Shown in pieces: positions 40,360 to 56,406 of a stretch of 62,992 bases of DNA; position 1 is the first letter of the stretch, and each line of letters begins with the position of its first letter. A program made the translations under genes and the position numbers. Source of the DNA: Pseudomonadota bacterium (GTDB lineage Bacteria; Pseudomonadota; Gammaproteobacteria; Xanthomonadales; Xanthomonadaceae); contig JAIUOJ010000005.1 of the NCBI GenBank assembly GCA_020161335.1, forward strand, positions 1 to 62,992, written 5' to 3'. The notes under the pieces were generated by a model. It worked only from the letters and a program-made list of their open reading frames with translations, did not search any database and was not told the DNA's origin.

Positions 40360-41209
40360 TCAACGAAAGCCGCCTGTCCGCGAACAGCGAGATACGCCTT
40401 CACCCAAGGCCAGGTTTCAGGACCCATGGGTTCCATTTCCTGAGGGCGCCGAAGTCGTCAAATCGATGGGCAAGCTCATTGCCAGGCCCAATGAGGGAAG
40501 ACCACACAACCTTGCGCTTATTGGCGACTCGGGTTTCGGGAAGTCCCATCTATTCGATTACTTCGCCGACTGCTACCCAGACATCGCTGAGGAAATGCCG
40601 CCGCGTATTCAGGTGGTCAATCTACGGGTGACCTCAGATTGCGATGGAAAGGGACTGATGCGAGGTTTGCTGTCGGAAATCGGTGCGACCTACCGCGCAA
40701 ACGATGCATATGATGATTTGCTCAGGGACTTCTGCATCAAGGCGGAAGTTTGTGAGGTCGGAATTGTTCTCCTGGACGAGTTCCATAACGGCATCAACAC
40801 TCGACGGGATAGGACGTTGAACTTCATCAGGGCGGTACGTGACCTGAGCAACTATCTTCGAAGGCCTATTGCTGTTGCTGGTGATGAACGAGTCCGGGAG
40901 TTGCTTCGGTACGACAAGCAACTGGATGAGCGGTTCCAGATTCGCCAGCTACCGGTCTGGGATGATAAGGAACGCGTCAGACAGCTCCTCGCCACGTTCG
41001 ATGAGAGGCTTGGACTGACGGAAAAGTCGATGCTCGGCACCACCAAGTTCGCAGAAAAGGTCATGGAACTGGCGGGTAACCATATGGGGTCAATCTCCGA
41101 ACTCATTCGGGAGGCTGGGCATATTGCAGTTCGCGAAGGGGCAGCCAAAGTCACTACCGATCATCTGGCCAAAGCGCGAATCGTTGTCAGTCGCGGCCTG
41201 GCCGCGTGA
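40352..41209 (+). CDS. tnsC: Tn7-like AAA+ regulator TnsC/TniB
   Basis: 285 residues, shorter than Tn7 TnsC (555) and close to TniB size. Walker A is G58-D-S-G-F-G-K-S, Walker B is V-L-L-D-E-F near residue 137, and the sensor/arginine region R-F-Q-I-R-Q-L-P-V-W lies near residue 195. It forms ATP-dependent filaments that link the target selector TniQ to the transposase. It overlaps tnsB at the start and tniQ at the stop (GTGA). Confidence 0.93.
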   Translation: MTSQRKPPVREQRDTPSPKARFQDPWVPFPEGAEVVKSMGKLIARPNEGRPHNLALIGDSGFGKSHLFDYFADCYPDIAEEMPPRIQVVNLRVTSDCDGKGLMRGLLSEIGATYRANDAYDDLLRDFCIKAEVCEVGIVLLDEFHNGINTRRDRTLNFIRAVRDLSNYLRRPIAVAGDERVRELLRYDKQLDERFQIRQLPVWDDKERVRQLLATFDERLGLTEKSMLGTTKFAEKVMELAGNHMGSISELIREAGHIAVREGAAKVTTDHLAKARIVVSRGLAA

Positions 41210-42513
41210 GTTTCCGTACTCCGCATCATCCAGCACTGGACATCTACCTCCCGCCAATCCCTTCTGAATCGGTGCTGTCCTGGCTCGTGCGGATCGCGCG
41301 CGCCAATGCGATCGGGTTGCATGAACTTGGATCGCGAATTCAAGGAGTCGCCGTCCACAGTACGATGAACGGGGATCTCGACGTTCTAGTGAACAGGCGA
41401 CTGTCGACGGGCCTGGCGCGGATATCTGGTTTGTCAATCGAAGAAATTGAACTCGCCGGACTGGGAAGCTGGGACTGGCTGCTCAGTGCTGAAGCTTCTG
41501 GGCGCAGGTGGATTCTTAGCCCTCGAAAGGCTCCCGATGGATCTAGAAGTGGACGCTGGGTGCAGGCTTGCTTCTCATGCTTCGCCGAGGATGACAAACC
41601 ATTCTTCAGACAGCACTGGCGCTATGCGTTCATCACAGACTGCGTTGTACATCAGACGCCACTGCATGACGCCTGTCCGAGATGCACAGAAACTTTGGAC
41701 TATCGACGCATCGATCGCGGCCCCAGCCGCGCGATGCGCCTACTTCCACTCTCTGTTTGTCCACATTGTTTCGTCGACTGGCGGATCTATGGGCAGCGTA
41801 CCCAGCGTTCCGTTTCAACCACAGTTGCATTGCAACGCAAGATTCTCAAGGGAATCACCTCGCGATGGGTTCCTCATTGCGGCAGGATGTTGTTGTTACC
41901 GCTGCTGCTTGACGGAATGCATCGACTCATCAGGTGCTTCAGAACGGAGACTGGTCGTCGCGTCGCTTCGAGGGTTCTCGGCGAGCATTTGAGTACTCGC
42001 TCCAAGGAGCAGATCGAACGCCTGTGCATTCATGACAGACGTCCCCTCATGCATGCGTTAGGCCTCTCTCTTTCGGACTGGCCGTCATCGTTCCTCGATT
42101 CCGCAGCGCGAGAGGGACTGACCATGTCGCAACTCAGGGAACGGGGCCCTGCGCCATGGTGGATCGAGAAAGGGATCGGCGAAAAGCTCGACAAGAGCTG
42201 GTATGCACCATCACCAGAAGAGGCGGCTAGCGCCAGAGTCACATTGAATAAGTATGGAATCAACGCAACGCCGTGGGTCTTGCGGGAATGGCTCGGGTGT
42301 CACGTGCCAGTTAGGCGCCTTATCCAGGCTCGACCTGTTTACGAGCCGAGACAGCTCTCACTTTGGAGGCATCCTGAAGAAGTCAGCCATACAATCAGAG
42401 CCATGCTTCTTCGCAGAATATCGAGGATTCTTATCCGCTATTGCACCCGTGGCTTGGGGCGCATGGCAGGGGAAAAGCAGATGCAATTGACGCTGGAATT
42501 CACATTCCGGTAG
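41206..42513 (+). CDS. tniQ: TniQ/TnsD-type target-selection protein
   Basis: 435 residues with GTG start overlapping the tnsC stop. The N-terminal TniQ domain begins P-S-E-S-V-L-S-W-L-V-R-I-A. Zinc ligands are visible as C-F-S-C, H-x4-C-P-R-C and C-P-H-C. C-terminal helix-turn-helix-like parts (about 270-420) would read the attachment site. As the only target selector in the window it is the best candidate to recognise the comM site where the element sits. Confidence 0.9.
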   Translation: MSFRTPHHPALDIYLPPIPSESVLSWLVRIARANAIGLHELGSRIQGVAVHSTMNGDLDVLVNRRLSTGLARISGLSIEEIELAGLGSWDWLLSAEASGRRWILSPRKAPDGSRSGRWVQACFSCFAEDDKPFFRQHWRYAFITDCVVHQTPLHDACPRCTETLDYRRIDRGPSRAMRLLPLSVCPHCFVDWRIYGQRTQRSVSTTVALQRKILKGITSRWVPHCGRMLLLPLLLDGMHRLIRCFRTETGRRVASRVLGEHLSTRSKEQIERLCIHDRRPLMHALGLSLSDWPSSFLDSAAREGLTMSQLRERGPAPWWIEKGIGEKLDKSWYAPSPEEAASARVTLNKYGINATPWVLREWLGCHVPVRRLIQARPVYEPRQLSLWRHPEEVSHTIRAMLLRRISRILIRYCTRGLGRMAGEKQMQLTLEFTFR

Positions 42514-42579: not shown

Positions 42580-43173
42580 CTAGTTCGACGGTTGCGTCCA
42601 GAACCTCATGTCCACATCGGCGGCGACGTTTCCGTAACCCGGATCGACCTGTTGAGCAAAAGATCCCGAATACTGTGTTGCGCCATCGCAATCAGAGAAG
42701 ATGATCTGGGCCACCAGAAGCCCCGGGTACAGTACAAGCGGAACCTCCCCAAGGTTTACGAGTTCGAGTGTTATGGTTCCGGTGAAGCCTGGTTGGATAG
42801 CTGTAGCAGTGGCGATCACGAGCCCAACTCGACCCCATCGCGACCTCGAGGTCACCCACGCGGACAAGTTCAGTGGCAGCTTCACGTACTCCAATGTGCT
42901 CGCGAGAACCAGCTCGTTGGGGTGCAGATAGAATTTAGAGCCAAAGTTCGCGTAGTGCCGGGAGTTGTATCTCGCGGATCTTGGATCAGAGCCCGCAGGG
43001 TCAATCGATGGAAGATTTCCTCTTCGCGTTACGACGAAATCGTTGCCTAGACGAACATCGATTGATGCCTCACCTACTTGGCTCGGATTGAGTAGGGGTG
43101 TGACGACAAGTTGGCTCTGAGGATTCTCATCCTGGATTGCACGGATAAGCCTCTGCTTACCTAGAACGCTCAT
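42580..43173 (-). CDS. Dcd-like dCTP deaminase/dUTPase-fold protein, candidate phage-defence effector
   Basis: 197 residues. The trimeric dUTPase/dCTP deaminase fold is recognisable: S-I-D-V-R-L-G, T-S-R-S-R-W-G-R near 109-115, P-G-F-T-G-T-I-T-L-E137 and L-Y-P-G. Glu137 matches the catalytic Glu of dCTP deaminase. Housekeeping Dcd exists elsewhere in most genomes; a second, divergent copy as cargo with two other genes fits the phage-defence deaminases that drain dCTP. It overlaps the upstream metalloprotease gene by 4 bases. Activity as deaminase versus diphosphatase cannot be told from sequence alone. Confidence 0.85.
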   Translation of the reverse strand: MSVLGKQRLIRAIQDENPQSQLVVTPLLNPSQVGEASIDVRLGNDFVVTRRGNLPSIDPAGSDPRSARYNSRHYANFGSKFYLHPNELVLASTLEYVKLPLNLSAWVTSRSRWGRVGLVIATATAIQPGFTGTITLELVNLGEVPLVLYPGLLVAQIIFSDCDGATQYSGSFAQQVDPGYGNVAADVDMRFWTQPSN

Positions 43174-44567
43174 TCGGCTGTGCCCCGAGTTCCGAGCCTG
43201 TAGCGACGCTGAAGTACGACGTACTCCAAACCCCGCAAAGCCTTCTCGTTGAGCCGGCCCAGATCCGCGATTGCTTGACCGGTGTCAGCGCTTGCTTGCG
43301 AGGCCTCAAGAGACACCAGCCAACCGGCGAGCACGGAGGACCGCTCGTCAACCGCCGTTGGGTCTATCGAGTTCCCAATCTCATTTGGCGGTAGCCCTTG
43401 CTTGAGGCGCTTGACTAAACCAGGAACCTCGCTTCGAATTGTCGACTCTCCGTAGAGAGCCTGGCCAACTGCATTGCGCGCAAATGCCTGGGCACTGGGC
43501 AACGTTGCCGCCACCCAATCGTATGCAATTCTCGCGGCATTCGAAGTCGCTATCTGCTGCTCATCAGACTTGTCTTGGACTAGGTTTTCCAGATGCTCGA
43601 ACAGCAAGGTTGCGTACGAGACCGTTGTCCCTATGGAGGGGTCAGCGGCCATGTCTCTCATTACGCCGATGTACCCTTCACGCTCAGCGGCTTCCATTGA
43701 TACGCGGATGCGCATTCTTCCCGGCGGATAGCCTCCATTCTGATCCGATGGAATGGCATTCAAGTTGTTCCACATGAAGATTTCGTAGCCAGCGAAGATG
43801 GCGCTTGGCCCGAACAGATACACGCCAACCATGTCAGAGATGAGTTCCTCTAGCGCTCTCTCTCTTAGTTGAAATACCTCCTGCATCGCTTCATGCAAAT
43901 CCGTAAGCGAGGGCTTGCCTCCCAGCGCCTGGAGGATGTCTAGGCGTGCTTGCGTTTCCCTAGCCTGACGCTCTGAAGATCCACCTTCCTTCTGGAGAAA
44001 ATCGTTGGCAATTTCGTGCCCTAGTTCATGCCCAAATATGGCGAGCATAGAAACGTTGTCTCTTTCAACGCGAGGGAAGGAAACTAGATAGTGCGGTCCC
44101 GTGTACTCCGCAAACACTTCGGACACTTCTGCGTCGGCACCCAAGTGCCTGAAGAGTACTTTCAGAGTCTCAATCAGGCTGCGGATCGTGAAGTTGTAAT
44201 CGGCCTGAGGCCATGCCAGGAATTTGGATTGGCGATTAAGACGTTCGTACAGCGAGCGCAGAAGGCAAACAAGCCCTCGAGGCGTTTGATCTGTTCCGGC
44301 GTTGTCGAAATACTTCAGCGTCTCGCCCAACTCTACGATCGCCCGGCTAGTCATAACCAGCGTTCGTTCGTCGGTGAGGCCTTCAATGCGCTTTCTTACT
44401 ATGACAAGTAGTTTGCCTAGAAGCTCAAGCGCCTCGCCCGCTCCTTCGTCCGGATAGTCTCTAGACCGTAGTTCTTCAAACCGGCGTTGCAACGCCAAGC
44501 AAAGCGCCGCCGAGCGGAGCCGATGATGATCGAGCGTTCGAAACGCTGTATTAGATGAGTTGGCCAA
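43170..44567 (-). CDS. Hypothetical HExxH metalloprotease in defence operon
   Basis: 465 residues, cytoplasmic by lack of signal or clear membrane helices. G-H180-E-L-G-H184-E is a classic zinc-protease motif, and E-E-L-I-S-D-M-V-G about 57 residues later can supply the third ligand, as in gluzincins. The N-terminal half is helical and the C-terminal ~150 residues are unassigned. Beyond the zinc motif I do not recognise the family. It lies between a small protein gene (overlap 17 bases upstream) and the Dcd-like gene (overlap 4 bases), so all three are one transcript. A proteolytic activator of the Dcd-like enzyme is an attractive but untested idea. Confidence 0.8.
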   Translation of the reverse strand: MANSSNTAFRTLDHHRLRSAALCLALQRRFEELRSRDYPDEGAGEALELLGKLLVIVRKRIEGLTDERTLVMTSRAIVELGETLKYFDNAGTDQTPRGLVCLLRSLYERLNRQSKFLAWPQADYNFTIRSLIETLKVLFRHLGADAEVSEVFAEYTGPHYLVSFPRVERDNVSMLAIFGHELGHEIANDFLQKEGGSSERQARETQARLDILQALGGKPSLTDLHEAMQEVFQLRERALEELISDMVGVYLFGPSAIFAGYEIFMWNNLNAIPSDQNGGYPPGRMRIRVSMEAAEREGYIGVMRDMAADPSIGTTVSYATLLFEHLENLVQDKSDEQQIATSNAARIAYDWVAATLPSAQAFARNAVGQALYGESTIRSEVPGLVKRLKQGLPPNEIGNSIDPTAVDERSSVLAGWLVSLEASQASADTGQAIADLGRLNEKALRGLEYVVLQRRYRLGTRGTAE

Positions 44568-45036
44568 GAAGTGCGCTCCGACCGACAGCGGTAGGCCGGA
44601 GACGATTGCTTTCGATGAGCTCTAGTATGGATGCATAGAGCCGATCGAAGAAGGCGCGAGCGTTCACTATATCGGCCTCGTTCAAGGTGGAGGCCTGCCC
44701 TGCTGCAATTTCGTGCACGGCCTTTGCCAGACCATCAAACACTTCTGGCGCTTGGCGATCCTTGAGCAGATCCAATGACTCAATTGGATGAAGCGCGAAG
44801 CCGAAGACGTACGTTGAGTTGATGACGCTGCCTCGGGAGTGCGTGCCGGTTGAGATGAACGCGGCACCCTCGGCAACTTGCTTGAGGAACTCTTCCGCCT
44901 CTCCCAGGATGTCCTGATCCTCTCTACTCAACGCCTGCTGTGCCTCAGCCCGGCTGATGGCTTCGGACGACCGCGCCGCGAGCAAACCGTACTTGATCGA
45001 TTCGGCGCTACGCAGCTGGAGGCTGGGATCACTCAT
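44551..45036 (-). CDS. Small hypothetical protein, first gene of metalloprotease/Dcd operon
   Basis: 161 residues from the ATG at 45036 (M-S-D-P-S-L-Q-L-R), which has GGAG a few bases upstream; the longer frame starts 21 codons earlier without a clear ribosome site. Mainly helical and acidic, with I-S-T-G-T-H-S-R-G-S-V-I in the middle. No family recognised. Being first, overlapping the protease gene by 17 bases, it may be the sensor or inhibitor of the system. Confidence 0.7.
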   Translation of the reverse strand: MSDPSLQLRSAESIKYGLLAARSSEAISRAEAQQALSREDQDILGEAEEFLKQVAEGAAFISTGTHSRGSVINSTYVFGFALHPIESLDLLKDRQAPEVFDGLAKAVHEIAAGQASTLNEADIVNARAFFDRLYASILELIESNRLRPTAVGRSALLGQLI

Positions 45037-45144
45037 AAAGATCTCCGTGAGGGTCACTTGAGCAAGAGACCATTTCGGCCCAAACTGGTTGTCCCACAAG
45101 CTCGAAGCGGTTCCGACGCAAGTGAGATCGATGGCTGTTCGAGC

Positions 45145-45816: not shown

Positions 45817-46704
45817 CTATTTTCGCCATCTAAGAGCTTGGTCAACCGGGATGAGGAGATCATCCTCTGGCAGTTCCCAGAGGGGTGTTGCATCAGGTAG
45901 CAACAGCAAACCCAATGTGTAAGGGTAATCTCCGCCTATTGCGAGCGCGTGCTCTACCAGTTCAATGTCGCCAGGTTCTTTTTCGAACCACAGGTTGGCT
46001 CGTTGCTTTGCGGTAACAGGCCCACTCCTGACGCTGACTTGGTTGAGAATTGATTCTTCTGGAACTGGAATTGTCAGCTTCTTGGCGGGCAAGTACACCC
46101 TCGATCTGAAGGCGGCGTTGTTCGATCGTGCCCACAGAACAAAGCCATCCCGAGCTGCAACCACGACCGCCCGTTTCGTTGCGATTTCCGTCCATTTCAG
46201 AGCCGCGGCCATCAACGATACTCCGTACCTGTTGCCGCAATGACGAAGCATTTCTATCGAGGGCAACAGGCCGGCAACCTGATTGCGATAGTCGTCCAGC
46301 GGCATGAGTAGATAAGAAGCAAAGACATCGGCTTCAGCTTCTATGTCCCGCTGATCCCACTCGTGCATGTCACGCAATGAGCACCGGAACTCGCTCTTCA
46401 TCTCGCGATGCAAGATGTAGTGTCCGAATTCATGGGCCAGCGTGAAACGGATCCTTCCTGGAGATTGGATCCGGTGGTTGTAGCCGATTTTCCATTTCCT
46501 GTCGGTGGGGTGCCGACCGAGGAGACCTTCGACCCCATCTATATCAAAAGTATTGATCGAGACGATGGGGTCGTCTGAGTAACGAACGCGGCTTAGCTCT
46601 AGGGCTACTTTCTCGACGTCCACAGGGAAGCGTTCGTCGTCGGGAAGTACACGGAGCAATTGCGAAATCTTGTTGGCCTCTGCCATCGGCCTTTTCGCAC
46701 CCAT
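45817..46704 (-). CDS. ImmA/IrrE-type metallopeptidase
   Basis: 295 residues from the ATG at 46704, two bases after the XRE stop; a GTG at 46725 would overlap the XRE gene. The COG2856 zinc site is H-E-F-G-H-Y, followed by E-A-E-A-D-V-F-A-S-Y-L-L-M-P, the standard third-ligand helix. Such enzymes cleave their XRE partner repressor after a stress signal, as ImmA does to ImmR. The C-terminal half (about 170-295) is an extension of unknown role. Transcribed with the XRE gene, divergent from the ubiquitin-like operon. Confidence 0.92.
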   Translation of the reverse strand: MGAKRPMAEANKISQLLRVLPDDERFPVDVEKVALELSRVRYSDDPIVSINTFDIDGVEGLLGRHPTDRKWKIGYNHRIQSPGRIRFTLAHEFGHYILHREMKSEFRCSLRDMHEWDQRDIEAEADVFASYLLMPLDDYRNQVAGLLPSIEMLRHCGNRYGVSLMAAALKWTEIATKRAVVVAARDGFVLWARSNNAAFRSRVYLPAKKLTIPVPEESILNQVSVRSGPVTAKQRANLWFEKEPGDIELVEHALAIGGDYPYTLGLLLLPDATPLWELPEDDLLIPVDQALRWRK

Positions 46705-46706
46705 GC

Positions 46707-47033
46707 TCAGCCCTCGTCGTCCCACATCTCCAAGAACTTGCGAACCTTCTCCTTCCGCTTGGAATCAAGTTCCTTGTAGCGACGGAAGAAAGCTTGATCC
46801 AGCACGCCTGTCTCGGGCTCGACTTCAGCAGAGTGATCTAGCAGGAACTCTGTCGTGACACCAAGTGCAAAAGCGATCTTGATGAGCTTATCGGCCGAAG
46901 GATTGGCCTTATCCCGGTTCTCAAGCTCCCACAGGTAGCCCTTGCTGGAGTCAGTGGCTTTGGCCAATTGATCCAGGCTCAAGTCGAGTTCGGCCCTGCG
47001 GGCGCGGATCTTCTCTCCGAGCGGTGATGCCAT
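46707..47033 (-). CDS. XRE-family HTH repressor
   Basis: 108 residues. The Cro/C1 helix-turn-helix spans about 7-65 (L-D-Q-L-A-K-A-T-D-S-S-K-G-Y-L-W-E-L-E) and the tail is charged (Y-K-E-L-D-S-K-R-K-E-K-V). It precedes the ImmA/IrrE gene with two bases between stop and ATG, the normal repressor-protease pair order. It starts 139 bases from the divergent triple-Ubl gene, and the intervening DNA holds an 18-bp palindrome, so it likely represses the ubiquitin-like operon and itself. Confidence 0.93.
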   Translation of the reverse strand: MASPLGEKIRARRAELDLSLDQLAKATDSSKGYLWELENRDKANPSADKLIKIAFALGVTTEFLLDHSAEVEPETGVLDQAFFRRYKELDSKRKEKVRKFLEMWDDEG

Positions 47034-47126
47034 GCGTGCCTCCGAGGGGGTCAGCGATTGTACGGTATAACAAACGAAGTTGTAATGGTTGACAGGACAA
47101 AGAAGATGCGACAGAGTTCTCGCCGA

Positions 47127-47144
47127 CGTTCGGTATTACGAACG
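47127..47144. promoter_or_regulatory. Operator-like palindrome before the ubiquitin-like operon
   Basis: CGTTCG-GTATTA-CGAACG is a perfect 6-bp-arm dyad. It ends 7 bases before a TATCAT -10-like box (47152-47157), and GGAG (47160-47163) then leads to the ATG at 47173. A repressor bound here would cover the -35 position. A weaker dyad around ACAA-ACGAAG-TTGT (47070-47083) lies nearer the XRE gene. Confidence 0.6.
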
Positions 47145-47172: not shown

Positions 47173-48282
47173 ATGAATACCATCGAAGCTGAACAAGCCC
47201 CTGTCGATCACGCCTCCCACCGTCAGTTGGAGGTCCGTGTCAACGGCGAACGCGTCCCCCTGACTGACCATACCCCGACTGGGCGGCAGGTACTCGCCGC
47301 GGCCAATTTGCGGCCGGATACCGAGTTCGCCCTGTTGTTGTGGCCGGCGGTGGGGCCCACCCGCGAGATCGGGTTGGAAGAAGTGACGCGGGTACCCAAG
47401 GATGGGCCCGGTCTGGAGTTCTTCGCCATGCGAGCGGATCGCGTTACTTACTTCGTCCTCGACGGCGATCGTTACGCTTGGGCAGGCCCCCTCGATCTCG
47501 AAACGATTCGGCGTATCGGCCGCGTTCCCGCCGACCGACAGGTCTGGCTGGAACGGCGCGACGAGCCCGACGTGCTCCTGCAGGACGGACAATTGGTGGA
47601 TTTGGATCCTGCGGGGGTCGAGCGCCTGTACACGCGTGAGAAGACTTGGCGACTGGACGTCCAGGGCGAACCGACTGAATGGGATCGCCCCGATGTGATC
47701 GTTCGCGACGCACTCATCAAGGCGGGCATCGATCTGGCGAAGCAATGGACGATCGTGCTGAAGGTGAAGGGTAAGCCTCATCGTCAGGTCAAGCTCATCG
47801 ATGTCATCGATCTCGAGCAGCCCGGCATCGAACGGCTGTGGTTGCGCCCGCGACAGGTCGATAACGGTGACGGCCAGATCCTCCGGCGGCGAGAGTTCAC
47901 GCTATTGCCTGGTGACGATGCTTTTCTGAATGCCTCGGGCTATCAGTGGGAAACAATCGCGGACGGAGCGCGCCGCTGGCTGATCATTGATAACTATGCC
48001 GTCCCCGATGGCTACAACATGTCCAATTGCCGCGTCGCGCTTGAAATCCCGCAGAGCTACCCCGCGGCGCAGATCGACATGTTCTACTGCGACCCGCCCC
48101 TCTCGCTCCGGAGTGGCGTTGTTCCAGCTGCTACAGACGTGCGCCAAAGCATAGCGGGGGTTTCGTTCCAGAGGTGGTCCCGTCACAGGAACGCCGCGAG
48201 CCAGTGGTCCCCGACGCACGACAATGTCTCCACCCATCTGGGGTTGGTCGACGAGGCTCTGGGGCGAGAGGTGGGGGCATGA
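47173..48282 (+). CDS. Triple ubiquitin-like protein fused to an E2 (Prok-E2_E type)
   Basis: 369 residues from the ATG at 47173 (GGAG 9 bases upstream). Three ubiquitin-like units: about 18-88 (R-Q-L-E-V-R-V-N-G), 90-155 (Y-F-V-L-D-G-D-R) and 158-228 (T-W-R-L-D-V-Q-G), each closing with a strand such as V-E-R-L-Y or I-E-R-L-W-L. The linker N-G-D-G (231-234) leads to an E2-like domain, 238-369, with Cys306 in M-F-Y-C-D-P-P-L, then F-Q-R-W-S-R-H and a late His in N-V-S-T-H-L. E2 type E normally stands alone or joins an E1; fusion to multi-Ubl is unusual. Translation is coupled to the E1 gene (ATGA). Confidence 0.87.
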   Translation: MNTIEAEQAPVDHASHRQLEVRVNGERVPLTDHTPTGRQVLAAANLRPDTEFALLLWPAVGPTREIGLEEVTRVPKDGPGLEFFAMRADRVTYFVLDGDRYAWAGPLDLETIRRIGRVPADRQVWLERRDEPDVLLQDGQLVDLDPAGVERLYTREKTWRLDVQGEPTEWDRPDVIVRDALIKAGIDLAKQWTIVLKVKGKPHRQVKLIDVIDLEQPGIERLWLRPRQVDNGDGQILRRREFTLLPGDDAFLNASGYQWETIADGARRWLIIDNYAVPDGYNMSNCRVALEIPQSYPAAQIDMFYCDPPLSLRSGVVPAATDVRQSIAGVSFQRWSRHRNAASQWSPTHDNVSTHLGLVDEALGREVGA

Positions 48283-49676
48283 TCCGACCTCGTACCCTGG
48301 TCTTGCCAGGCACCGTTCATCGGCGCCTCGAACAACACCTATTCCCTGGTGATGGAAAGGAAGCTGCGGCCGTCCTTCTATGTTCCCGCACCGAGAGTAT
48401 GGGACTGAAGCTGATGGTTCGCGACATCATCTTGGTGCCTTACCAGAATTGCCATCGCACCGAGGTGTCCCTCAGCTGGCCAGGGGATTACATAGATCAT
48501 GGTTTGGAGGCAGCGGCTGGGGAGGATTTGTCCATCATCCTGCTTCACTCGCACCCGACTGGGGTCTACGGATTCTCACCGGTGGACGACCGATCTGATC
48601 AAGACGTTATCCGCTCGCTGATCATGGCAGCCCCGGTGGAGCGTGGTGATTACGAGCCTTGGCACGGTAGCGCGATCATGATTCCAGGCGGCGCGATCAA
48701 GGCTCGCGTCTACGACCGGGCCATGCAGGCCCATGCCGTAGACCTAGTGGCAGCTTACGGCGACGAACTCCAGTTTTACTGGGGAGAAGACAACGAGCCG
48801 CACCATCACATAATGGCTTTTGGCGATGGAATGGCCGCCCTATTGGCCAAGCTCAGCATTGCGGTGATCGGGGTCTCTGGCACGGGAAGCGTGGTCGCAG
48901 AGCAGCTACTTCGCATGGGGGTGGGAGAGCTGATCGTCGTGGATTACGATCATGTGGAAGAGAAAAATCTCAACCGCATCCTGAACACCACATTGGCGGA
49001 TTCAATCGGGAAATCTCTGAAAGTTGACGTGTTCGAGCGCGCCGCGGCCTGCATTCGTCCAGCGACAAAGGTCAGGGCTGTCTGTAGCGATATCGGCGCA
49101 AGGGATGCCATCGAAACCGTCGCCAAAGCGGATGTCGTGTTCTGCTGTGCCGACAGCCTTGAGGCGCGCCACATTTGTGATCGAATCGCTGCGGCCATGC
49201 TCCAGCCATTGTTCGACGTAGGAGTGACCATCCCCGTTAGAACGCCGGCGCGGGGCATGGTCATTTCGAACGTGAGTGGTCGCGTGGACTATGTCCAGCC
49301 GGGTGGTTCCACACTAGGTGACCGTGGCGTTTATACGCCCGAGTTGCTTGAGGCGGAGTATCTCAAGAAGGCCGACCCTGCGTCCTACGTCGATCGTGTC
49401 AGGGAAGGCTACATGCCAGGTTCCGGCCAGGAAGCACCCTCTGTTATCTGCGTGAACATGCATGCAGCGAGCGCGGTGGTTCTTGAGTTTCTGGCACGTG
49501 CCTTTCCCTTTCGATTGGACGGTAATACCTCGTTCGCCCGCGTCGAGTATGACCTTGCATCCGAATATCGCCATCACGTCACAGAAAAAACTTTCACAAC
49601 AAATTCTATGAGTCTGCTTGGAGTAGGTTTGCGACGTCCGCTGCTAGGCTTGCCTGTGCTGGAGGATCTCGCGTGA
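48279..49676 (+). CDS. JAB deubiquitinase-like domain fused to ThiF/E1 activating enzyme
   Basis: 465 residues. The N-terminal JAB/JAMM domain has Glu28 and H90-S-H92-x7-S100-x2-D103, the full zinc set of an active isopeptidase. The C-terminal E1/ThiF domain has the nucleotide loop G-V-S-G-T-G-S near 198-204, V-D-Y-D-H-V-E-E-K-N-L-N-R near 221-233, and C-C-A-D at 289-292; the transfer Cys cannot be named with certainty. One chain thus both activates and removes the Ubl. The ATG overlaps the Ubl-E2 stop, and the end overlaps the DUF6527 gene (GTGA). Confidence 0.9.
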   Translation: MIRPRTLVLPGTVHRRLEQHLFPGDGKEAAAVLLCSRTESMGLKLMVRDIILVPYQNCHRTEVSLSWPGDYIDHGLEAAAGEDLSIILLHSHPTGVYGFSPVDDRSDQDVIRSLIMAAPVERGDYEPWHGSAIMIPGGAIKARVYDRAMQAHAVDLVAAYGDELQFYWGEDNEPHHHIMAFGDGMAALLAKLSIAVIGVSGTGSVVAEQLLRMGVGELIVVDYDHVEEKNLNRILNTTLADSIGKSLKVDVFERAAACIRPATKVRAVCSDIGARDAIETVAKADVVFCCADSLEARHICDRIAAAMLQPLFDVGVTIPVRTPARGMVISNVSGRVDYVQPGGSTLGDRGVYTPELLEAEYLKKADPASYVDRVREGYMPGSGQEAPSVICVNMHAASAVVLEFLARAFPFRLDGNTSFARVEYDLASEYRHHVTEKTFTTNSMSLLGVGLRRPLLGLPVLEDLA

Positions 49677-50029
49677 TCTTTTGGCTGAAAAGTACCTTCG
49701 AACGACTCGCAGCTTGGTGGCGAGGCGATCTGAAAGTCGTGCCTGGAGAGGGCGATACGCTGCCTGCTCGCATCCAGCGCCAACGTCTCATCCACATGAT
49801 GGAAGCTGGCGAAAGCTGGTCTGTCGGTTTTCACTGCCCATGCGGTTGCGGTGATGTTATTGAGCTGCTTCTACTAAGCACGGTAAATCCTCACTGGACT
49901 CTCTCAGTGGATAGATTGGATCGGCCAACACTGCATCCTTCTGTATGGAAGTCCACCGGTTGCAGATCGCATTTCTGGGTAAAGAATGGCCAGATCATTT
50001 GGTCGGGGCCAAAACAAGGACGTCACTGA
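49673..50029 (+). CDS. DUF6527-type Cys-rich protein of the ubiquitin-like operon
   Basis: 118 residues, GTG overlapping the previous stop. C-P-C-G-C-G-D, then S-T-V-N-P-H-W, L-H-P-S-V-W and T-G-C-R-S-H-F-W are the hallmarks of the DUF6527 family. The Cys pattern suggests a zinc ribbon. Members are often found at the end of bacterial Ubl-E2-E1-JAB operons. Role unknown: target, adaptor or E3-like factor are all possible. Confidence 0.85.
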   Translation: MIFWLKSTFERLAAWWRGDLKVVPGEGDTLPARIQRQRLIHMMEAGESWSVGFHCPCGCGDVIELLLLSTVNPHWTLSVDRLDRPTLHPSVWKSTGCRSHFWVKNGQIIWSGPKQGRH

Positions 50030-50328
50030 TATCCGTGGCCTCGTAGGTAGAACGAAGGGCCTAGCTCAGCCTAAAGGGGAGCTACTGATACATGGGGAAT
50101 CAACCCGCATCTGTACGAATCCAGAACGATACAAAAACGAGAATTTAATGTTCCCCTTAATGCTGGCCATCCCAGCAGCCAAAGGCCGTATGGAGAAGTC
50201 TTGACGCCACAACGATGTACGCGCACAGTTCCCACGCTGCATATGACGGACTAGTTGTAGGCGTCTGAATCGGAGACCCATTGTCCGATCAGTCAGGTAA
50301 ACAGGGCATCCCCAACTTTTCTTTTCGC
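50030..50328. other. 299-base spacer between defence and envelope/metal cargo
   Basis: No convincing gene. A 72-codon frame (49986-50204) overlaps the DUF6527 gene and has no family features. The strip marks the change from the defence block to the czc/lipid A block and may be a scar of an earlier junction; no terminal repeat could be identified. Confidence 0.4.
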
Positions 50329-50643
50329 ATGACCAAGTGTTTTGCCCGTAGTCGAAGACTGATCATGGCATTGCTTCTTGCAATGCTGGTGATCGTGCCT
50401 GCGATCGACGCAGCAGCTTGCATGGTCGAGCCGGAAACGATCCAACACGATATCGACTCGGATCCCGATACCGCAGATCATGCCGTTTGCGGGCATGGTC
50501 ACTGCCACCATACCGGGACGCAGTTGGTACCGTCCTTTGCCTACTGTCCGCTGGTCGTTCATACGGATCTTGTCCTCGCGCCTGAGAGGCTGGCGCCAGA
50601 GTCTTTGCTGCCCGAAGGGTTGAAGCGTCCGCCCCGAGTCTGA
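50329..50643 (+). CDS. CzcI-like small periplasmic metal-responsive protein (copy 1)
   Basis: 104 residues from ATG 50329 (an upstream TTG would add 16). Signal peptide M-A-L-L-L-A-M-L-V-I-V-P ends A-A-A-C. The mature part carries C-G-H-G-H-C-H-H, a dense metal-binding cluster, and closes L-K-R-P-P-R-V. It is clearly paralogous to the gene at 55996 (V-C-A-H-N-H-C-H-H, ends M-R-P-P-R-I). Such proteins head czcCBA operons and modulate their expression. Here it is followed not by czcC but by the glycosyltransferase cassette. Confidence 0.75.
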   Translation: MTKCFARSRRLIMALLLAMLVIVPAIDAAACMVEPETIQHDIDSDPDTADHAVCGHGHCHHTGTQLVPSFAYCPLVVHTDLVLAPERLAPESLLPEGLKRPPRV

Positions 50644-50801
50644 TCGCAATGTTTGCGGCGTTCGCCGCAGTGATTGCCATCTAGCCAGACTCACGAGCAT
50701 CCCATGCATGACCTTATCGACTGGTCGCCTTCGGCGACCGGTGGCTACGTCATTGCGTGTCCTGCCTGCCGGCCAAAAGCCGGCACGGGCGGGAGCGCAA
50801 G

Positions 50802-52502
50802 ATGACGGCCACATCTCTTCCTCGCCTGAGCTTCACTCAATTCCGCCCGCCGAACATCGTCGTCCTGTTGCTCGTATCACTTGCCGTGCTTGGCGCGGGA
50901 CTGGGGCTGCGAGATCCCTGGCCTGCGGACGAACCGCGCTTCGCGCTCGTAGCCAAGCAGATGGTCGAAAGCGGCGACTGGCTGTTTCCGCACCGGGGCG
51001 CTGAGCTCTACTCGGATAAGCCACCGCTGTTCATGTGGATCCAGGCCGCGCTGTACTGGACAACGGACAATCTGCGCATCTCCTTCCTGCTTCCATCGTT
51101 GTTGGCAGGCCTCCTGACAATCGTACTGACGTACGACCTTGGTCGTCGGCTTTGGAACCGACAGATCGGGCTGTATGCCGGCTGGGCATTGCTTCTCACC
51201 GCGCAGTTCACACTGCAAATGAAGCGTGCACAGATCGACCCTTTGCTGATCGCTTGGGTCACGCTCGCACACTACGGGCTGCTGCGGCATATCCTCCGGG
51301 GGCCTGATTGGCGAATGTGGACACTGGGGTGGTTTGCCGCGGGACTGGGCGTCATCACCAAAGGTGTGGGCATCATCGCCTTGTTTGTCCTGATCCCCGC
51401 GATAGCCGCAACCTGGTGGCAACGTAGCGTCTCGAGCTCATGGTGGCGCGACTGGAAGTGCTGGCTGGGACCCGTTGCGCTGCTGGCGGCCATCTCGCTC
51501 TGGCTCGGGCCCATGCTGGTTGCTGTCCGGCTTGCGCCTACCACCGAGCACCTGGCCTACGTCCAAGACATCCTGTTCCGACAAACCGTCGAGCGGTACG
51601 CGGAATCCTGGACGCACATCAAACCTGTCTGGTATTTCGCAGGTGTAATGGCGAGCGCGTGGTTGCCGCTCATGTTGGCGATGCCTTGGGCACTCGCACC
51701 ATGGAAGCGAAGAATTTTTCGTGGAGATCCTCGCTTCCTGCTCTTGCTGGGCAGTTGGCTGCTGATCGTGTTGTTCTTCTCGCTTCCATCCGGCAAGCGA
51801 GACATGTACATCCTGCCGGCCTTGCCATTGGCCTGCTTGGCATTCGCGCCATTGCTTCCTGGTCTGCTCAGGCGTGACGGACCGCGTCTGCTGCTCCTTG
51901 GATTCGTGGTGGCGTTGGCTATCGCGCTCTTATTGGCGGGTTTGGCAATGCTGTTCGCAGACCCGGGTTTCGAGAAGCGATTCCTGCTGATGCGTGGCAT
52001 GTCCACAGGATCAGAGGGCATCGCCTGGCTTGTCCTTGGCATGGCAGTGCCCGCGTTGTTCGGGGCAGTCGTTGCCATGGGGGGCAGGGTCGCAACAGGT
52101 GCAATCGCTAGCTTGGCAGGAATGTGGATCGTCTTCGGTATCGTGAGTGCAATCGTGCTCAATGATGCGAGTTCATCGCGGGGCATGATGCAGTCCGTCG
52201 CCCGACGGATCGGCCCGGATGCGCAACTTGGTCTCGTGGGATGGCGAGAGCAGCAGTTGTTGATGAGCCAGTCGCCGACCACGGAGTTTGGTTTCAAGCG
52301 ACCGGAGAAGGATCAGCTGGAGAGCGGACTCGCGTGGCAAGCGCAGGCGCCCGCTGACAGGTGGTTGCTCATCGTGGGCTCAGCGATTCCACAAGAATTT
52401 CGCGATGGGGAACTACTGGCCGTGGGTATTGCAAATCGCCGAACGTGGTGGCTGCTGCCCGGACGTGCAAGAGACGTCGACAAGAGGGAGAGCCAGCCAT
52501 GA
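50802..52502 (+). CDS. ArnT-like GT39 glycosyltransferase
   Basis: 566 residues, about 12 membrane helices. The first periplasmic loop has P-W-P-A-D-E-P-R-F-A, the catalytic Asp-Glu of PMT/ArnT enzymes, followed by S-D-K-P-P-L-F-M-W. GT39 enzymes use polyprenyl-phosphate sugars, and ArnT adds L-Ara4N to lipid A. The substrate here is unknown, but the next genes (GT2, LAB_N, EptA-like, DgkA) all fit lipid A or envelope modification. ATG 50802 follows GGGAG. The stop overlaps the GT2 gene (ATGA). Confidence 0.85.
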   Translation: MTATSLPRLSFTQFRPPNIVVLLLVSLAVLGAGLGLRDPWPADEPRFALVAKQMVESGDWLFPHRGAELYSDKPPLFMWIQAALYWTTDNLRISFLLPSLLAGLLTIVLTYDLGRRLWNRQIGLYAGWALLLTAQFTLQMKRAQIDPLLIAWVTLAHYGLLRHILRGPDWRMWTLGWFAAGLGVITKGVGIIALFVLIPAIAATWWQRSVSSSWWRDWKCWLGPVALLAAISLWLGPMLVAVRLAPTTEHLAYVQDILFRQTVERYAESWTHIKPVWYFAGVMASAWLPLMLAMPWALAPWKRRIFRGDPRFLLLLGSWLLIVLFFSLPSGKRDMYILPALPLACLAFAPLLPGLLRRDGPRLLLLGFVVALAIALLLAGLAMLFADPGFEKRFLLMRGMSTGSEGIAWLVLGMAVPALFGAVVAMGGRVATGAIASLAGMWIVFGIVSAIVLNDASSSRGMMQSVARRIGPDAQLGLVGWREQQLLMSQSPTTEFGFKRPEKDQLESGLAWQAQAPADRWLLIVGSAIPQEFRDGELLAVGIANRRTWWLLPGRARDVDKRESQP

Positions 52503-53293
52503 CGCAGGCCGCGCCGCTCCCAACTGCAACTCTCCGAGTCAGTTCGAGTCCCTCGGTTACAGTCGATTCGATATCAGTCGTTATCCCGGCATACAACGAA
52601 GCCGGCAATATCAGAACTTTGCTGCAAGAAGTCTGCGACGCACTACGTGGCCGTATCGAGTTCGAGATTATCTGCGTTGATGATGGTTCGAGCGATGGCA
52701 CCGCACAAGTACTCTTGGATTCAAAGAACGAGATTCCAGAACTGCGGGCCTTCCAGCACGAGAAATGTAGCGGTCAGAGCGTTGCCCTGCTCACCGGCGT
52801 GCAGAATGCCTATGGCCCTTGGATTGCAACGCTGGACGGAGATGGCCAGAACGATCCGTCTGACATTCCGGGCCTGATCACTTGCCTGCAGAGTTCATCC
52901 TGTGACGTAAAGCTGATAGCAGGATGGCGCGTCTCGCGCAACGATGGTCCAGCCAAGCGGATTGCGTCTCGGTTGGCCAATTGCATTCGGCGATTTTTCT
53001 TGCGTGACGGCACGCCGGACACAGGGTGTGGGATCAAGCTCTTCGAGCGTGACGCGTTTCTAGCCTTGCCTGCCTTCAACCACATGCACCGCTATCTGCC
53101 AGCGCTAATGCAGCGCGCTGGCTGGAAGACAGTCAGCGTGTCTGTCAATCACCGACCACGCGGCATGGGTAGATCGAAGTACACCAACTTCGGTCGCGCC
53201 ATGGTGGGCGTGCGCGATCTCATGGGCGTGGCTTGGCTGATAGATCGTCACACACGCAGAAACGCCCACGTGGTTCGGGAACGTCAGCTGTGA
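52499..53293 (+). CDS. GT2 glycosyltransferase, polyprenyl-phosphate sugar synthase type
   Basis: 264 residues. The GT-A fold starts V-V-I-P-A-Y-N-E-A-G-N-I, then V-D-D-G-S-S-D-G-T, L-D-G-D-G-Q-N-D-P (metal-binding) and D-T-G-C-G-I-K. The pattern is that of DPM1/ArnC-like enzymes that load a sugar onto undecaprenyl phosphate. There are no C-terminal membrane helices. It should supply the lipid-linked sugar to the GT39 encoded just upstream. Overlaps both neighbours by 4 bases. Confidence 0.9.
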   Translation: MTQAAPLPTATLRVSSSPSVTVDSISVVIPAYNEAGNIRTLLQEVCDALRGRIEFEIICVDDGSSDGTAQVLLDSKNEIPELRAFQHEKCSGQSVALLTGVQNAYGPWIATLDGDGQNDPSDIPGLITCLQSSSCDVKLIAGWRVSRNDGPAKRIASRLANCIRRFFLRDGTPDTGCGIKLFERDAFLALPAFNHMHRYLPALMQRAGWKTVSVSVNHRPRGMGRSKYTNFGRAMVGVRDLMGVAWLIDRHTRRNAHVVRERQL

Positions 53294-53616
53294 ATTCTCC
53301 GATCGAATGGCTGTCTTGGTTCGGAATCGTCATGACACCCTGGAAGATCATCGGCCTTACGGGGGCGCTGATGTTCGGTGCTCGATGGGTTGTGCAGTTC
53401 CTGGCCAGCCGCAAGGCGGGCAGACCCGTGATACCTCGACTGTTCTGGTACATGAGTCTGACAGGAAGCCTCATGACGCTGTCGTACTTCGTGTTCTCGA
53501 ACAAGCAGGATCTTGTCGGGGTTCTACAGAACCTGTTGCCCGCATTCACGGCGGGCTACAGCCTCTATCTCGACCTGCGTTCTGAACCGGCGCATCCGAA
53601 GCACAGCTCCCATTAG
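53290..53616 (+). CDS. Lipid A biosynthesis N-terminal (LAB_N) domain membrane protein
   Basis: 108 residues, GTG overlapping the GT2 stop. Three hydrophobic helices and the motif G-A-R-W-V-V-Q-F-L-A-S-R-K-A-G-R-P-V-I-P are characteristic of LAB_N. In other genomes this small domain stands beside DPM1-like GT2 and GT39 genes. Its job is probably to assist handling of the lipid-linked sugar at the membrane. Confidence 0.88.
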   Translation: MNSPIEWLSWFGIVMTPWKIIGLTGALMFGARWVVQFLASRKAGRPVIPRLFWYMSLTGSLMTLSYFVFSNKQDLVGVLQNLLPAFTAGYSLYLDLRSEPAHPKHSSH

Positions 53617-53712
53617 CGAGTTCTGAGTCCTTCTCCCAAGGCGAGATCCAACGCCTTCCTTGAGCAAACATCGTCTGCAATTTGGCGGAAGAACCCAATC
53701 AGAAAGCCAGAA

Positions 53713-55431
53713 ATGAACAAAGTAAGTGGATCACTAAAAAACCAGGCGAGTACAGAGCGTGGGATGAATCGCGCCACCGCAAACTTGAGCGCGCGGCTGC
53801 AAAGATGGGCGCCACCCGTCGTTGAAATGGAAACGTTGATCGCTGCAGTAGCGATCTACTTTGTCCTCGTGACGAACAGTTCATTCTGGTCGTCGCTGTG
53901 GGGGACAGGAGCTCTCGTAGGAGTTTCTGGTGTGCAAGTCTCGATCTGCATCGGCATGGCGATCTTCGCTTTGCACGCGCTTCTCATTACGCTATTCGGC
54001 ACGCGATGGCTTATTAAGCCGGTCTTGACGTTGCTTCTTCTTGTGGCGTCTGGAGCATCTTATTTTTCCAGCAAGTATTCGGTGTACATCGATCCGAGCA
54101 TGATCCGGAATGTCCTACGCACTGACATGACTGAGGCGAGAGAGCTGATGACAGCGGGGCTGTGGATCCAGATTCTGGTACTAGGCATTATTCCCGCATT
54201 GCTGGTATGGACAGTACGAATTAGGCCCAGATCAATCAGGCAAATGATCGCTCGCCGGGCGACGTTCGTAGTTGCCATGTTGGCTTTGGCCTCGATCAGT
54301 TTGTTCTCGATCCTGGATGAGTTCTCCCCCATCATGAGAAACCATCCGTCCATGCGCTATCTGATTGCGCCCGGGAATGCATTAGTCGCCATGACGAAAG
54401 TGATCTCAGAGACGACGCGCACCCCTCGTGGTCCACGAAATGTTGTCGGTGCCGACGCCACACTGATGGGGCACGAAGCTGTGGCCAAACCTCATTTCCT
54501 GGTAATCGTGGTCGGCGAGACCGTGCGCGCCCAGAACTGGGGGCTCAACGGCTATTCCCGGCAAACGACGCCGCAGCTTGCGGCGTTGGATGTCATTAAC
54601 TTCACGGATGTGACTGCATGCGGATCGAATACGGAGGTTTCGGTGCCCTGCATGTTCTCGTCCATCGGCAGGCGCAGCTACGACCGAGAGCGAATCGTCA
54701 ACTCGGAATCCCTGCTGCACGTCTTGGAACGGGCCGGCATAAAAACACTGTGGCGCGATAACCAGACAGGCTGTAAAGGTGTTTGCGATGGCCTGTCATT
54801 CGAGTCCTATCGAGACCCGAGGGAAGATCCATTGTGCGACGGCCAGTCGTGTCGGGACGCGGTCATGCTGCAGGGCTTGCACGACGCAATCGACGATAAC
54901 CCAGGAGATGTCGTCGTGGTGCTTCACCAATTGGGAAGCCATGGCCCAAGCTACTTCAAACGCTATGCGGCAGAGTTCAGGAAGTTTGTTCCTGATTGCG
55001 TGAATCCAGATCTTGGGAAATGTAGTCGCCTAGAGATCGTCAACGCTTACGACAATGCCATTCTCGCAACCGACGACTTTCTAGCTGAAGTCATTCGAAT
55101 GCTGGCGGAAGATGCGTCTCATGACACGGCGATGATCTACCTATCGGATCACGGTGAATCTCTCGGAGAGAACAACGTATACCTACACGGATTTCCATAT
55201 GGCATTGCACCAGATACCCAGATTAAGGTGCCGATGTTGGCTTGGCTTTCAGAAGGGATGGCATCGAGTACCGGAACTAGTACTGGCTGCCTCAAGCAGC
55301 GCTCCAGATTGCCCACGAGCCACGACAATCTCTTCCATTCCGTTCTCGGATTGATGGATGTCCAGACAGAGGCCTACGAGCGAAGTCTTGATGTATTCGC
55401 AGGCTGCAGGGGTGAGGAAGAGACGCGCTGA
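53713..55431 (+). CDS. EptA/MCR-like phosphoethanolamine-lipid A transferase
   Basis: 572 residues, or 555 from the alternative ATG 53764. Five N-terminal membrane helices (about 40-200) lead to a periplasmic sulfatase-fold domain. V-V-G-E269-T, C-G-S-N-T307-E-V-S-V-P-C with nucleophile Thr307, G-S-H-G-P-S-Y and S-D-H-G-E-S-L-G-E-N supply the zinc site; paired cysteines match EptA. It transfers phosphoethanolamine from phosphatidylethanolamine to lipid A, lowering negative charge and polymyxin binding, and releasing diacylglycerol. Followed by dgkA, which would recycle that diacylglycerol. Whether it gives resistance depends on expression and substrate preference. Confidence 0.93.
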   Translation: MNKVSGSLKNQASTERGMNRATANLSARLQRWAPPVVEMETLIAAVAIYFVLVTNSSFWSSLWGTGALVGVSGVQVSICIGMAIFALHALLITLFGTRWLIKPVLTLLLLVASGASYFSSKYSVYIDPSMIRNVLRTDMTEARELMTAGLWIQILVLGIIPALLVWTVRIRPRSIRQMIARRATFVVAMLALASISLFSILDEFSPIMRNHPSMRYLIAPGNALVAMTKVISETTRTPRGPRNVVGADATLMGHEAVAKPHFLVIVVGETVRAQNWGLNGYSRQTTPQLAALDVINFTDVTACGSNTEVSVPCMFSSIGRRSYDRERIVNSESLLHVLERAGIKTLWRDNQTGCKGVCDGLSFESYRDPREDPLCDGQSCRDAVMLQGLHDAIDDNPGDVVVVLHQLGSHGPSYFKRYAAEFRKFVPDCVNPDLGKCSRLEIVNAYDNAILATDDFLAEVIRMLAEDASHDTAMIYLSDHGESLGENNVYLHGFPYGIAPDTQIKVPMLAWLSEGMASSTGTSTGCLKQRSRLPTSHDNLFHSVLGLMDVQTEAYERSLDVFAGCRGEEETR

Positions 55432-55508
55432 AACTCTGGCGCTTGTGGTGAAAAAGAAAGCCGCCTCGCGCTGGTCGTTGAGTAAATCATTTGAACAGGA
55501 GCTTATGA

Positions 55509-55880
55509 ATGGCCGACAACTATGGCCACGTACCAAGGGGGCCCACCCGCTTGATGAAAGCGCTTCGTTGGTCGATGCAAGGGATCCGCGCGGCCTGGCT
55601 TCACGAGTCGTCGTTCCGTCTGGAGGCAGTACTAGCCGCTGTCATGCTTCCCCTCGGGGCATGGCTTGGCGAAACCGGTGTGGAAAAGGCGTTGCTGGTG
55701 TCCACGGTCCTGATGGTGCTGTCGATGGAATTGCTCAACTCGTCAATCGAGGCTGTCATCGAGAGATACGGCCCCGAACATCATGAGCTGGCAGGTCGAG
55801 CAAAGGACATGGGGTCGGCCGCGGTGTTCGTTTCCCTGTCGGCCGTGGTCGCGGCTTGGGTGTTGATCCTGGCCTCGTAG
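55509..55880 (+). CDS. dgkA: Diacylglycerol kinase DgkA
   Basis: 123 residues, normal for the small trimeric bacterial enzyme. ATG 55509 follows AGGAG (55497-55501). Three membrane helices surround the signature V-L-S-M-E-L-L-N-S-S-I-E, with A-G-R-A-K-D-M-G-S-A-A-V next to the third. It phosphorylates diacylglycerol to phosphatidic acid at the inner membrane. Placed 77 bases after the EptA-like gene, it fits disposal of diacylglycerol made by that reaction. Confidence 0.95.
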   Translation: MADNYGHVPRGPTRLMKALRWSMQGIRAAWLHESSFRLEAVLAAVMLPLGAWLGETGVEKALLVSTVLMVLSMELLNSSIEAVIERYGPEHHELAGRAKDMGSAAVFVSLSAVVAAWVLILAS

Positions 55881-55995
55881 GCGATCGAGCCGCCCCCTCG
55901 TTTCAGGCTGAACGGAGGGTCGGAATCGACGCCCAGAGGCTATTGAATAGCGTTTGTTATTGTATCCGTAGGGACTATCCCCAATACTTGCCACC

Positions 55996-56343: not shown

Positions 56344-56406
56344 CGTGCGTTTCCTGCCCGCCGAGGGCGGGCACCCCACGTCAATATCTAGATCCCGGAG
56401 TGTCCA

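Follow-up and report, generated by a model that had tools for sequence, protein, structure and literature searches.

The three-gene operon at positions 47173-50029 of the window, the 62,992-nucleotide stretch of DNA analyzed here, is an intact copy of a bacterial ubiquitination-like (Bub) operon, in which BubA and BubB form one chain, BubC and BubD form the other, and a DUF6527 protein is the partner. Its three frames are uninterrupted and lie on the plus strand: a bubAB-type gene (47173-48282; 369 aa) encoding three ubiquitin-like (Ubl) domains fused to an E2, a bubCD-type gene (48279-49676; 465 aa) encoding a JAB (JAMM) metallopeptidase fused to an E1/ThiF domain, and the DUF6527 gene (49673-50029; 118 aa), with neighboring genes sharing ATGA at 48279-48282 and GTGA at 49673-49676, overlaps that follow from the frame coordinates and the sequence. 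All Pfam matches exceed their respective cut-offs: Multi_ubiq in three stretches (1.2e-20) and Prok-E2_E at residues 244-365 (9.7e-37) of the first protein, Prok-JAB (8.2e-8) and ThiF (1e-27) in the second, and DUF6527 (6.3e-23) in the third. Among PDB sequences, the Citrobacter Bub entries (9ea4, 9ea5, 9ea8, 9eae, and 9eav, with the multi-Ubl protein 9d59/9d5a) align along both of the fused chains, the first protein matching the multi-Ubl protein 9d59 (E 7.1e-42), BubA 155-229 (9ea8; 1.8e-18), and BubB (9eav; 5.6e-30), and the second matching BubCD (9ea4; 1.3e-127); taken together, the domain and fold matches of the operon are far beyond chance. The Citrobacter proteins and those of the window share the JAMM site, the serine of a WSR motif, and the N-G end of the modifier. 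Judged by features that the analyst drew from the deposited proteins, the window combines a BubA-like multi-Ubl with a C-terminal N-G, a BubB-like E2 that lacks a conserved cysteine and has a conserved serine, a BubCD-like JAB-E1 with JAMM, and an adjoining DNA-damage regulator (CapW, CapH with CapP, or CapK with CapS in Bub operons, where it is frequent, though not required). The original prediction of three coupled genes with these domain identities, including an intact JAMM zinc site fused to ThiF/E1 and a Cys-rich DUF6527 protein, is borne out by the frames, by the profile matches, and by conservation, the JAMM residues E28, H90, H92, S100, and D103 being kept in 88 or 89 of the 89 JAB-E1 relatives.

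The same prediction had held the two-fusion layout to be unusual, and here it has to be corrected: the layout is the usual form among close relatives, is not new, and belongs to an already studied pathway. The main census comprised 89 loci (the window, 7 plasmids chosen by the analyst from 40 listed of 98, 80 genome contigs, and 1 viral contig) and leans toward close, fused relatives because only the best 80 of 288 genome relatives were used. All three genes are present in 75 of these best 80; of the remaining five, four run into a contig end and one is broken. The Ubl-E2 fusion is kept in 78. A wider sample took in, besides the window's own genome, 27 that have a Multi_ubiq match, 26 of them with flanks and one as a short locus only; in this set, the two-fusion layout is in the minority (4 of 27), and 11 of the 26 loci hold, by profile detection, an E1 that lacks JAB, followed by DUF6527, with no E2 detected. 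A DNA-level search of E. coli genomes gave no match. The architecture was already catalogued by Iyer et al. in 2006 as type 6e (PMC1779556), with a polyUbl, an E2/RWD domain fused to it in some species, a JAB-E1 fusion, and a Cys/His metal-binding protein, all of which are found here. That the arrangement is new and unusually compact, with a canonical cysteine E2 (Cys306) and a Ubl released inside N-G-D-G, is scarcely credible: the window protein does carry the Cys306 and NGDG letters and the JAMM site is intact, but Cys306 and Gly234 recur in only 28 and 14 of the 87 aligned relatives, respectively, the layout is shared with the relatives counted above and with type 6e, and solved relatives exist.

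We consider it highly probable that this Bub operon works under the control of CapH and CapP by a cycle of JAB cleavage after Gly232, E1 adenylation, oxyester transfer through Ser336, and removal of the tag by JAB. The sequence would begin with DNA damage or phage-made single-stranded DNA activating CapP, which would cut CapH and thereby open the divergent bub promoter, as is known elsewhere; the JAB domain would then cut the fused chain into a free triple Ubl and an E2. A cut separating the Ubl block from the E2 had been proposed at N-G-D-G (231-234), and the analysis supports such a cut while moving the end: the third Ubl domain (47647-47868, plus strand) has its predicted mature C-terminus at Gly232 (codon 47866-47868) and not at Gly234, because N231-G232 is invariant in 87 of 87 aligned Ubl-E2 relatives and G234 is present in just 14, on which grounds a cut at the latter was rejected; position 233 is E or D in all 87. 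This alignment, from which one census locus with broken frames and one at a contig start were left out, contains several near relatives, so that its 87 rows are not 87 independent observations; the structure alignment joined the window protein with 56 of 68 listed Ubl-E2 proteins. The fold prediction that had been asked for gives Ubl and BubB-like folds for the three-Ubl and E2 chain (mean pLDDT 91.7 overall), with Foldseek superposing the model on solved BubA(155-229) at 1.0 Å over 75 columns, the third Ubl being 48% identical to its Citrobacter relative. Conservation, the deposited constructs, and the split operons together make a JAB cut after Gly232 the most likely event.

A chain that stays uncut, so that BubAB acts as one polypeptide with the E2 built into the modifier and JAB serves only to remove conjugates, would agree with the retention of the fusion in nearly all of the best 80 genome relatives, but is very unlikely in view of four points. 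Residues 231-240, which include the invariant N-G-[E/D], are modeled with less confidence (mean pLDDT 67); the deposited BubA chains 9d59 and 9ea8 terminate at the residue aligned with Gly232 and the deposited BubB chains begin after the aligned glycine; the free Ubls of three split operons end in a glycine that aligns gap-free, by eye, with Gly232; and E1 chemistry requires a free C-terminus on the Ubl. The glycine end is not universal across the wider family, since Ubls of distant sister operons lack it (ending in QS, KS, FGL, or FGA). As the Citrobacter relative forms filaments, according to its PDB title, the three-Ubl modifier may, by analogy, do the same.

Once free, Gly232 would be adenylated by the E1 domain, for which a conventional thioester is not expected, given that its residues 316-463 contain no invariant cysteine; the E2 would then receive the Ubl on Ser336 as an oxyester, rather than on a cysteine, and pass it to targets, from which JAB could later take it off. 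The published Bub mechanism reportedly uses a serine for Ubl conjugation. In the window, the BubB-like E2 domain (47884-48279, plus strand; 45% identical to Citrobacter BubB, on which the model superposes at 0.8 Å over 130 columns) carries Ser336 (codon 48178-48180), which is invariant in 87 of 87 aligned relatives, as are W335, R337, and D350, and an S-[RW]-H motif recurs in all nine further E2s outside the main alignment. Cys306 (codon 48088-48090), earlier named as the residue of the E2 pocket, does occur in the window protein, yet it is rejected as the nucleophile: only 28 of 87 relatives have a Cys at this position, and Citrobacter BubB has Val. From conservation, Ser336 is the candidate nucleophile, although a residue so fully conserved could instead be structural. 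This departs from the reading of type 6e by Iyer et al., who judged the E2/RWD domain inactive for want of a cysteine (PMC1779556). If they were right, the domain would be catalytically dead (RWD-like), the chain would be a scaffold, and the E1 would transfer the Ubl directly or with DUF6527; the lack of a conserved Cys and the 11 of 26 wider-sample loci with no E2 detected speak for such a scheme, which we nevertheless find quite unlikely against the four invariant residues, the S-[RW]-H motif, and the existence, by PDB title, of a solved BubCD-BubB complex. The alignment yields sharp and inexpensive tests for this copy, namely Ser336 versus Cys306 and the cut after Gly232.

The DUF6527 protein stands out as the part of the operon for which neither a structure, nor a fold match, nor a paper was found: its profile has no solved relative among PDB sequences (best E 0.26), none of the 267 listed matches of its model in a fold search reached E ≤ 0.001, and a literature search on "DUF6527" returned no paper. 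Cys55, Cys57, Cys59, Cys97, and His100 are near-invariant in the alignment of 86 DUF6527 proteins and form a predicted metal site; the structure alignment joined the window protein with 67 of 75 listed ones. The gene comes after that of the E1 in operons with an E2 and likewise in 11 of 11 sister operons for which the profiles detect neither JAB nor E2, so the protein may act at a step common to both types. That it is a dedicated component of unrecognized fold serving this shared step (Ubl transfer or target choice), as a new E3-like or E2-replacing metal protein, is an unlikely possibility.

Two related systems differ from the operon. The Bil E2 has a catalytic Cys, which is not conserved in the window's E2 family (28 of 87), and type II CBASS (Cap2/Cap3) has a JAB partner to which the window's JAB can be likened by analogy. 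Bil resembles the window in its multi-Ubl modifier (residues 17-156 match Ubl-BilA 8u38, E 1.4e-10) but is described, in the relevant part of PMC11354881, as four separate genes for Ubl, E1, E2, and JAB, whereas the window has two fusions and DUF6527. The window's E1 matches PADLOC E1-E2 profiles (best 5.7e-14), but Pfam detects no E2 in its chain, and no cyclase family was matched among the neighboring proteins scanned. A passage of PMC13373217 states that an antiphage role has not been demonstrated for Bub, and a passage of a review (PMC12687455) that phages seem to be the main targets of systems of this type; an antiphage role of this operon is possible. A phage origin was rejected: the first protein has no match among phage records, and 1 of 37 viral-contig pattern matches encodes an E1 relative. 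Among the matches listed in a literature word search for BubCD, BubAB, and BubE, only "bube" occurred, in unrelated papers.

A Tn7-like element in comM carries the operon as cargo, together with a candidate CapH operator; the transposition genes of the element, TnsA, TnsB-like, TnsC (TniB), and TniQ, occupy 37715-42513 (plus strand; profile matches). Across 116 loci, the window's TnsA-TniQ genes had matches in no genome but the window's own, except for a weak one to TnsB at one other locus; with flanks of a few kb in this set, such elements may also surround the relatives. Two Tn7 papers that were searched yielded no instance of the word "ubiquitin". Upstream of bub and divergently oriented lie capH, an HTH repressor (46707-47033, minus strand; PADLOC capH 4.9e-26; HTH_3), and capP, an ImmA/IrrE-type protease (45817-46725, minus strand; PADLOC capP 1.3e-60; Peptidase_M78), whose product is expected, by analogy, to cut CapH upon build-up of single-stranded DNA. 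A consensus promoter scan listed a match toward capH (47086-47057, minus strand) and none in front of bub, and totals for promoters and terminators did not rise above those of shuffled sequence (2 versus 1.7 on average, and 1 versus 2.7); a TTGACA occurs at 47089-47094. The palindromic GTTCGGTATTACGAAC at 47128-47143, 5' of the bub start, is a candidate CapH operator, with a second, degenerate copy on the capH side at 47060-47078; of the 27 loci that have capH upstream, 7 contain the motif, and 5 of these 7 served to define it. According to a passage of PMC13373217, 219 of 544 Bub operons carry CapW or CapH with CapP. While the window operon adjoins capH/capP, its Enterobacter relative on plasmid CP109730.1 has capK/capS, the capKS pair of the E. 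roggenkampii CapS (WP_001567865.1) being placed beside a Bub operon in the text of PMC13373217, which disagrees with one of its figure legends as to whether the locus is Bub or CBASS; on the plasmid, the gene for this CapS immediately precedes homologues of the three operon genes, which speaks for the Bub assignment.

The three coupled genes form a Bub (bacterial ubiquitination-like) operon, a copy of a known kind. A Ubl-E2 gene (47173-48282) with three Multi_ubiq stretches and Prok-E2_E, a JAB-E1 gene (48279-49676) with Prok-JAB and ThiF, and a DUF6527 gene (49673-50029) overlap by four bases at each junction, and all of these Pfam matches lie above the cut-off, which confirms the gene set and domains of the original prediction. 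In a PDB sequence search, residues 23-232 of the first protein matched the Citrobacter multi-ubiquitin protein 9d59 (E 7.1e-42), residues 157-232 'Citrobacter BubA 155-229' (9ea8, E 1.8e-18), and residues 237-368 'Citrobacter BubB' (9eav, E 5.6e-30), with residues 6-463 of the second protein matching 'Citrobacter BubCD' (9ea4, E 1.3e-127). A structure model predicted for the first protein has a mean pLDDT of 91.7, its weak parts being the first 13 residues (below 50) and blocks 11-20 (64) and 231-240 (67), the last of which joins the third Ubl to the E2; by fold it lies 0.8 A from BubB across 130 aligned columns and 1.0 A from BubA(155-229) across 75, so that the proposed Ubl and E2 folds are borne out. 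An independent link of the three-gene set to Bub is provided by a shared accession: in the available text of PMC13373217, WP_001567865.1 is the accession of E. roggenkampii CapS, and the capK+capS pair is placed next to a Bub operon; a protein with this accession is encoded immediately before multiubiquitin, ThiF, and DUF6527 genes on E. roggenkampii plasmid CP109730.1, from a strain possibly other than that of PMC13373217. One figure legend of PMC13373217 labels the E. roggenkampii capK+capS locus CBASS-associated, which we take for a slip.

The observation of the three-gene operon stands, but its architecture cannot be called new, since the two-fusion layout was set out in Iyer et al. 2006 and is normal in close relatives. 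What remains are two corrected mechanistic details (Ser336 and Gly232 of the first protein), a probable regulatory switch, and an unexplained DUF6527 protein. In the relevant passages of Iyer et al. (PMC1779556), the Ubl is present as one to three repeats and in some species is joined to an E2/RWD-like domain; its partners are a small Cys/His protein and a JAB-E1 fusion, and all four elements recur in the window. A search of genome contigs by alignment of eight E1 proteins gave 288 relatives; among the best 80 of these, Ubl-E2, JAB-E1, and DUF6527 are all present in 75, the other five comprising three without DUF6527 (contig end), one without Ubl-E2 (contig start), and one with broken frames. 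Three Ubl hits were obtained in 71 of 78 Ubl-E2 proteins and one in 7, and a single Ubl ahead of the E2 was detected in close relatives L025, L042, L063, L083, L089, L098, and L099. In an Enterobacter locus (L095), both the operon copy and its capK/capS regulator have broken reading frames. The first protein matched 98 plasmid records, 53 of them over at least 80% of its length, and no match was returned from the phage records searched with it. Genome samples of the class and of the phylum, chosen independently of the E1 search, contained Multi_ubiq in 14 of 369 and 15 of 398 genomes, respectively, with the window's own genome included in each count; 26 of the 27 Multi_ubiq genomes besides the window's own were read out. 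They comprise three Ubl-E2 fusions, six loci with separate Ubl and E2 genes, five with Ubl, JAB, and E1 in which no E2 was detected, eleven with a JAB-less E1 and again no E2 detected, and one cut by a contig end; the 27th genome (G398) carries a triple-Ubl-E2 fusion with JAB-E1. On these counts the window's layout is a minority form in the wider family, and it is not rare among close relatives. At locus L172 (3267-4310), a 347-aa triple-Ubl protein ends in a C-terminal tail with the look, on visual inspection, of a diverged E2 (S-W-D); the E2 profile detected no E2 in this protein. The downstream gene of two Rhizobium plasmid operons (L016 7826-8434, L020 7828-8712) is annotated as a Clp protease proteolytic subunit.

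The E2 pocket had been placed at Cys306, a proposal that we reject: this position is Cys in 28 of 87 aligned Ubl-E2 proteins and Val in Citrobacter BubB, whereas S336 is invariant, as are Y296, P297, W335, R337, W345, and D350. An S-R-H or S-W-H motif is found in 9/9 additional E2s, taken from operons of fused or split type, and S336 precedes W345 at a spacing of nine residues; in canonical E2s, the Cys lies at about nine residues from the W-S-P motif. From its invariance, the recurring motif, and the W345 spacing, Ser336 is predicted to be the E2 acceptor. The Bub mechanism study of Ye et al. 2026 reportedly describes serine oxyester intermediates. Ye et al. 2026 is in the reference list of PMC13373217.

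The suggested cut within N-G-D-G (231-234) needs a similar adjustment: N231-G232 is invariant in the 87 Ubl-E2 proteins, all of which have E or D at position 233, but position 234 is G in only 14, so the predicted end is Gly232. The deposited 9d59 and 9ea8 terminate at the Gly aligned to Gly232, and BubB chains start just past it. Free Ubls of split operons terminate in ..NG (L148), ..EG (L149), and ..QG (L150), with 16 residues from P-G to the terminal Gly by an eye count, as from the window's P-G to Gly232, and the separate E2s of L148 and L149 have, near their putative N-terminus, residues resembling ..RREF in the fused E2. Because more distant Ubls end in ..FGA, ..FGL, ..QS, and ..KS, among others, the Gly-terminal rule holds for the near family only. 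The JAB domain would cut the Ubl-E2 chain after Gly232. Its zinc ligands H90 and H92 (89 of 89 aligned JAB-E1 proteins) and D103 (88 of 89) are kept, in agreement with the intact JAMM site described originally; the residue aligned to D103 has been mutated to Ala in complexes deposited under the name BubCD(D104A). In the E1 domain, C290 is invariant (89/89) but belongs to the adenylation domain's C-x-D motif, and no invariant Cys was found within residues 316-463 of the 89 aligned proteins. Y378 of the second protein is kept in 88/89, and the aligned residue is Phe in the deposited BubCD of 9eav and Tyr in 9ea5, a pattern that suggests functional weight for this tyrosine.

Divergent from the operon lie capH (4.9e-26) and capP (1.3e-60; PADLOC profiles), which are probably its regulatory switch. 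The text of PMC13373217, as far as available, reports that CapW or CapH+CapP adjoin 219 of 544 Bub operons and that CapP is an ssDNA-activated protease cutting CapH. Among the best 80 of the 288 loci, the upstream regulators are capH and capP in 22, capK and capS in 12, capP only in 11, capH only in 2, and another HTH gene in 5, with none of these detected by simple profiles in 28. In the window's intergenic region, GTTCGGTATTACGAAC occurs at 47128 and is repeated in degenerate form at 47060; similar sequences are present in L021-L024. Among 27 loci with capH upstream, a scan found the motif in 7, with no more than 3 of 300 shuffles scoring as high, and not in the other 20; five of the seven had served to define the motif, and two (L025, L042) had not. 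A scan for consensus promoters gave no sigma-70-like site ahead of bub; TTGACA in this place is common to relatives.

In the DUF6527 protein, P56, C57, C59, and W75 are invariant (86/86), and C55, C97, and H100 are kept in 85/86. Its structure model has a mean pLDDT of 87.1; neither a PDB sequence profile nor a fold search with the model matched a solved relative, and a literature search for the name 'DUF6527' found no mention. DUF6527 directly follows E1 in 11/11 JAB-less-E1 operons of the sample of 26 (L158-L162, L165, L166, L168-L171), in which neither JAB nor E2 was detected. Both E1s scanned from these sister operons carry DUF6791, and a Ubl gene, ending in ..QS or ..KS, was found by profile in 7 of the 11.

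The operon is probably carried by a Tn7-like element (TnsA, TnsB-like transposase, TniB/TnsC, and TniQ; 37715-42513) that splits comM. The gene is broken at about 37612, ComM query residues 1-79 are matched on a separate contig of the same genome (C61 6308-6544; L174, L175), and each of the two junctions has AAGGGC. According to the consulted part of PMC10293859, Tn6022 enters comM via TnsF at the Walker B site; the window's break, also in comM, is nearer the N-terminus, so the insertion site is probably a different one. As the right end lies beyond the window, the cargo probably takes in all of the window from about 37613 on. On the reverse strand at 42580-45099, a dCTP deaminase (TIGR02274, 133.5 bits, over cut-off) adjoins a 465-aa protein with an HELGH motif and a 182-aa protein, neither of which had a Pfam match; this group is a possible second defence-like module in the cargo. 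Downstream, 50281-62729 encodes a glycosyltransferase (PMT) and an EptA-type phosphoethanolamine transferase; a metal-efflux RND set and a DgkA-like kinase were recognised there by eye.
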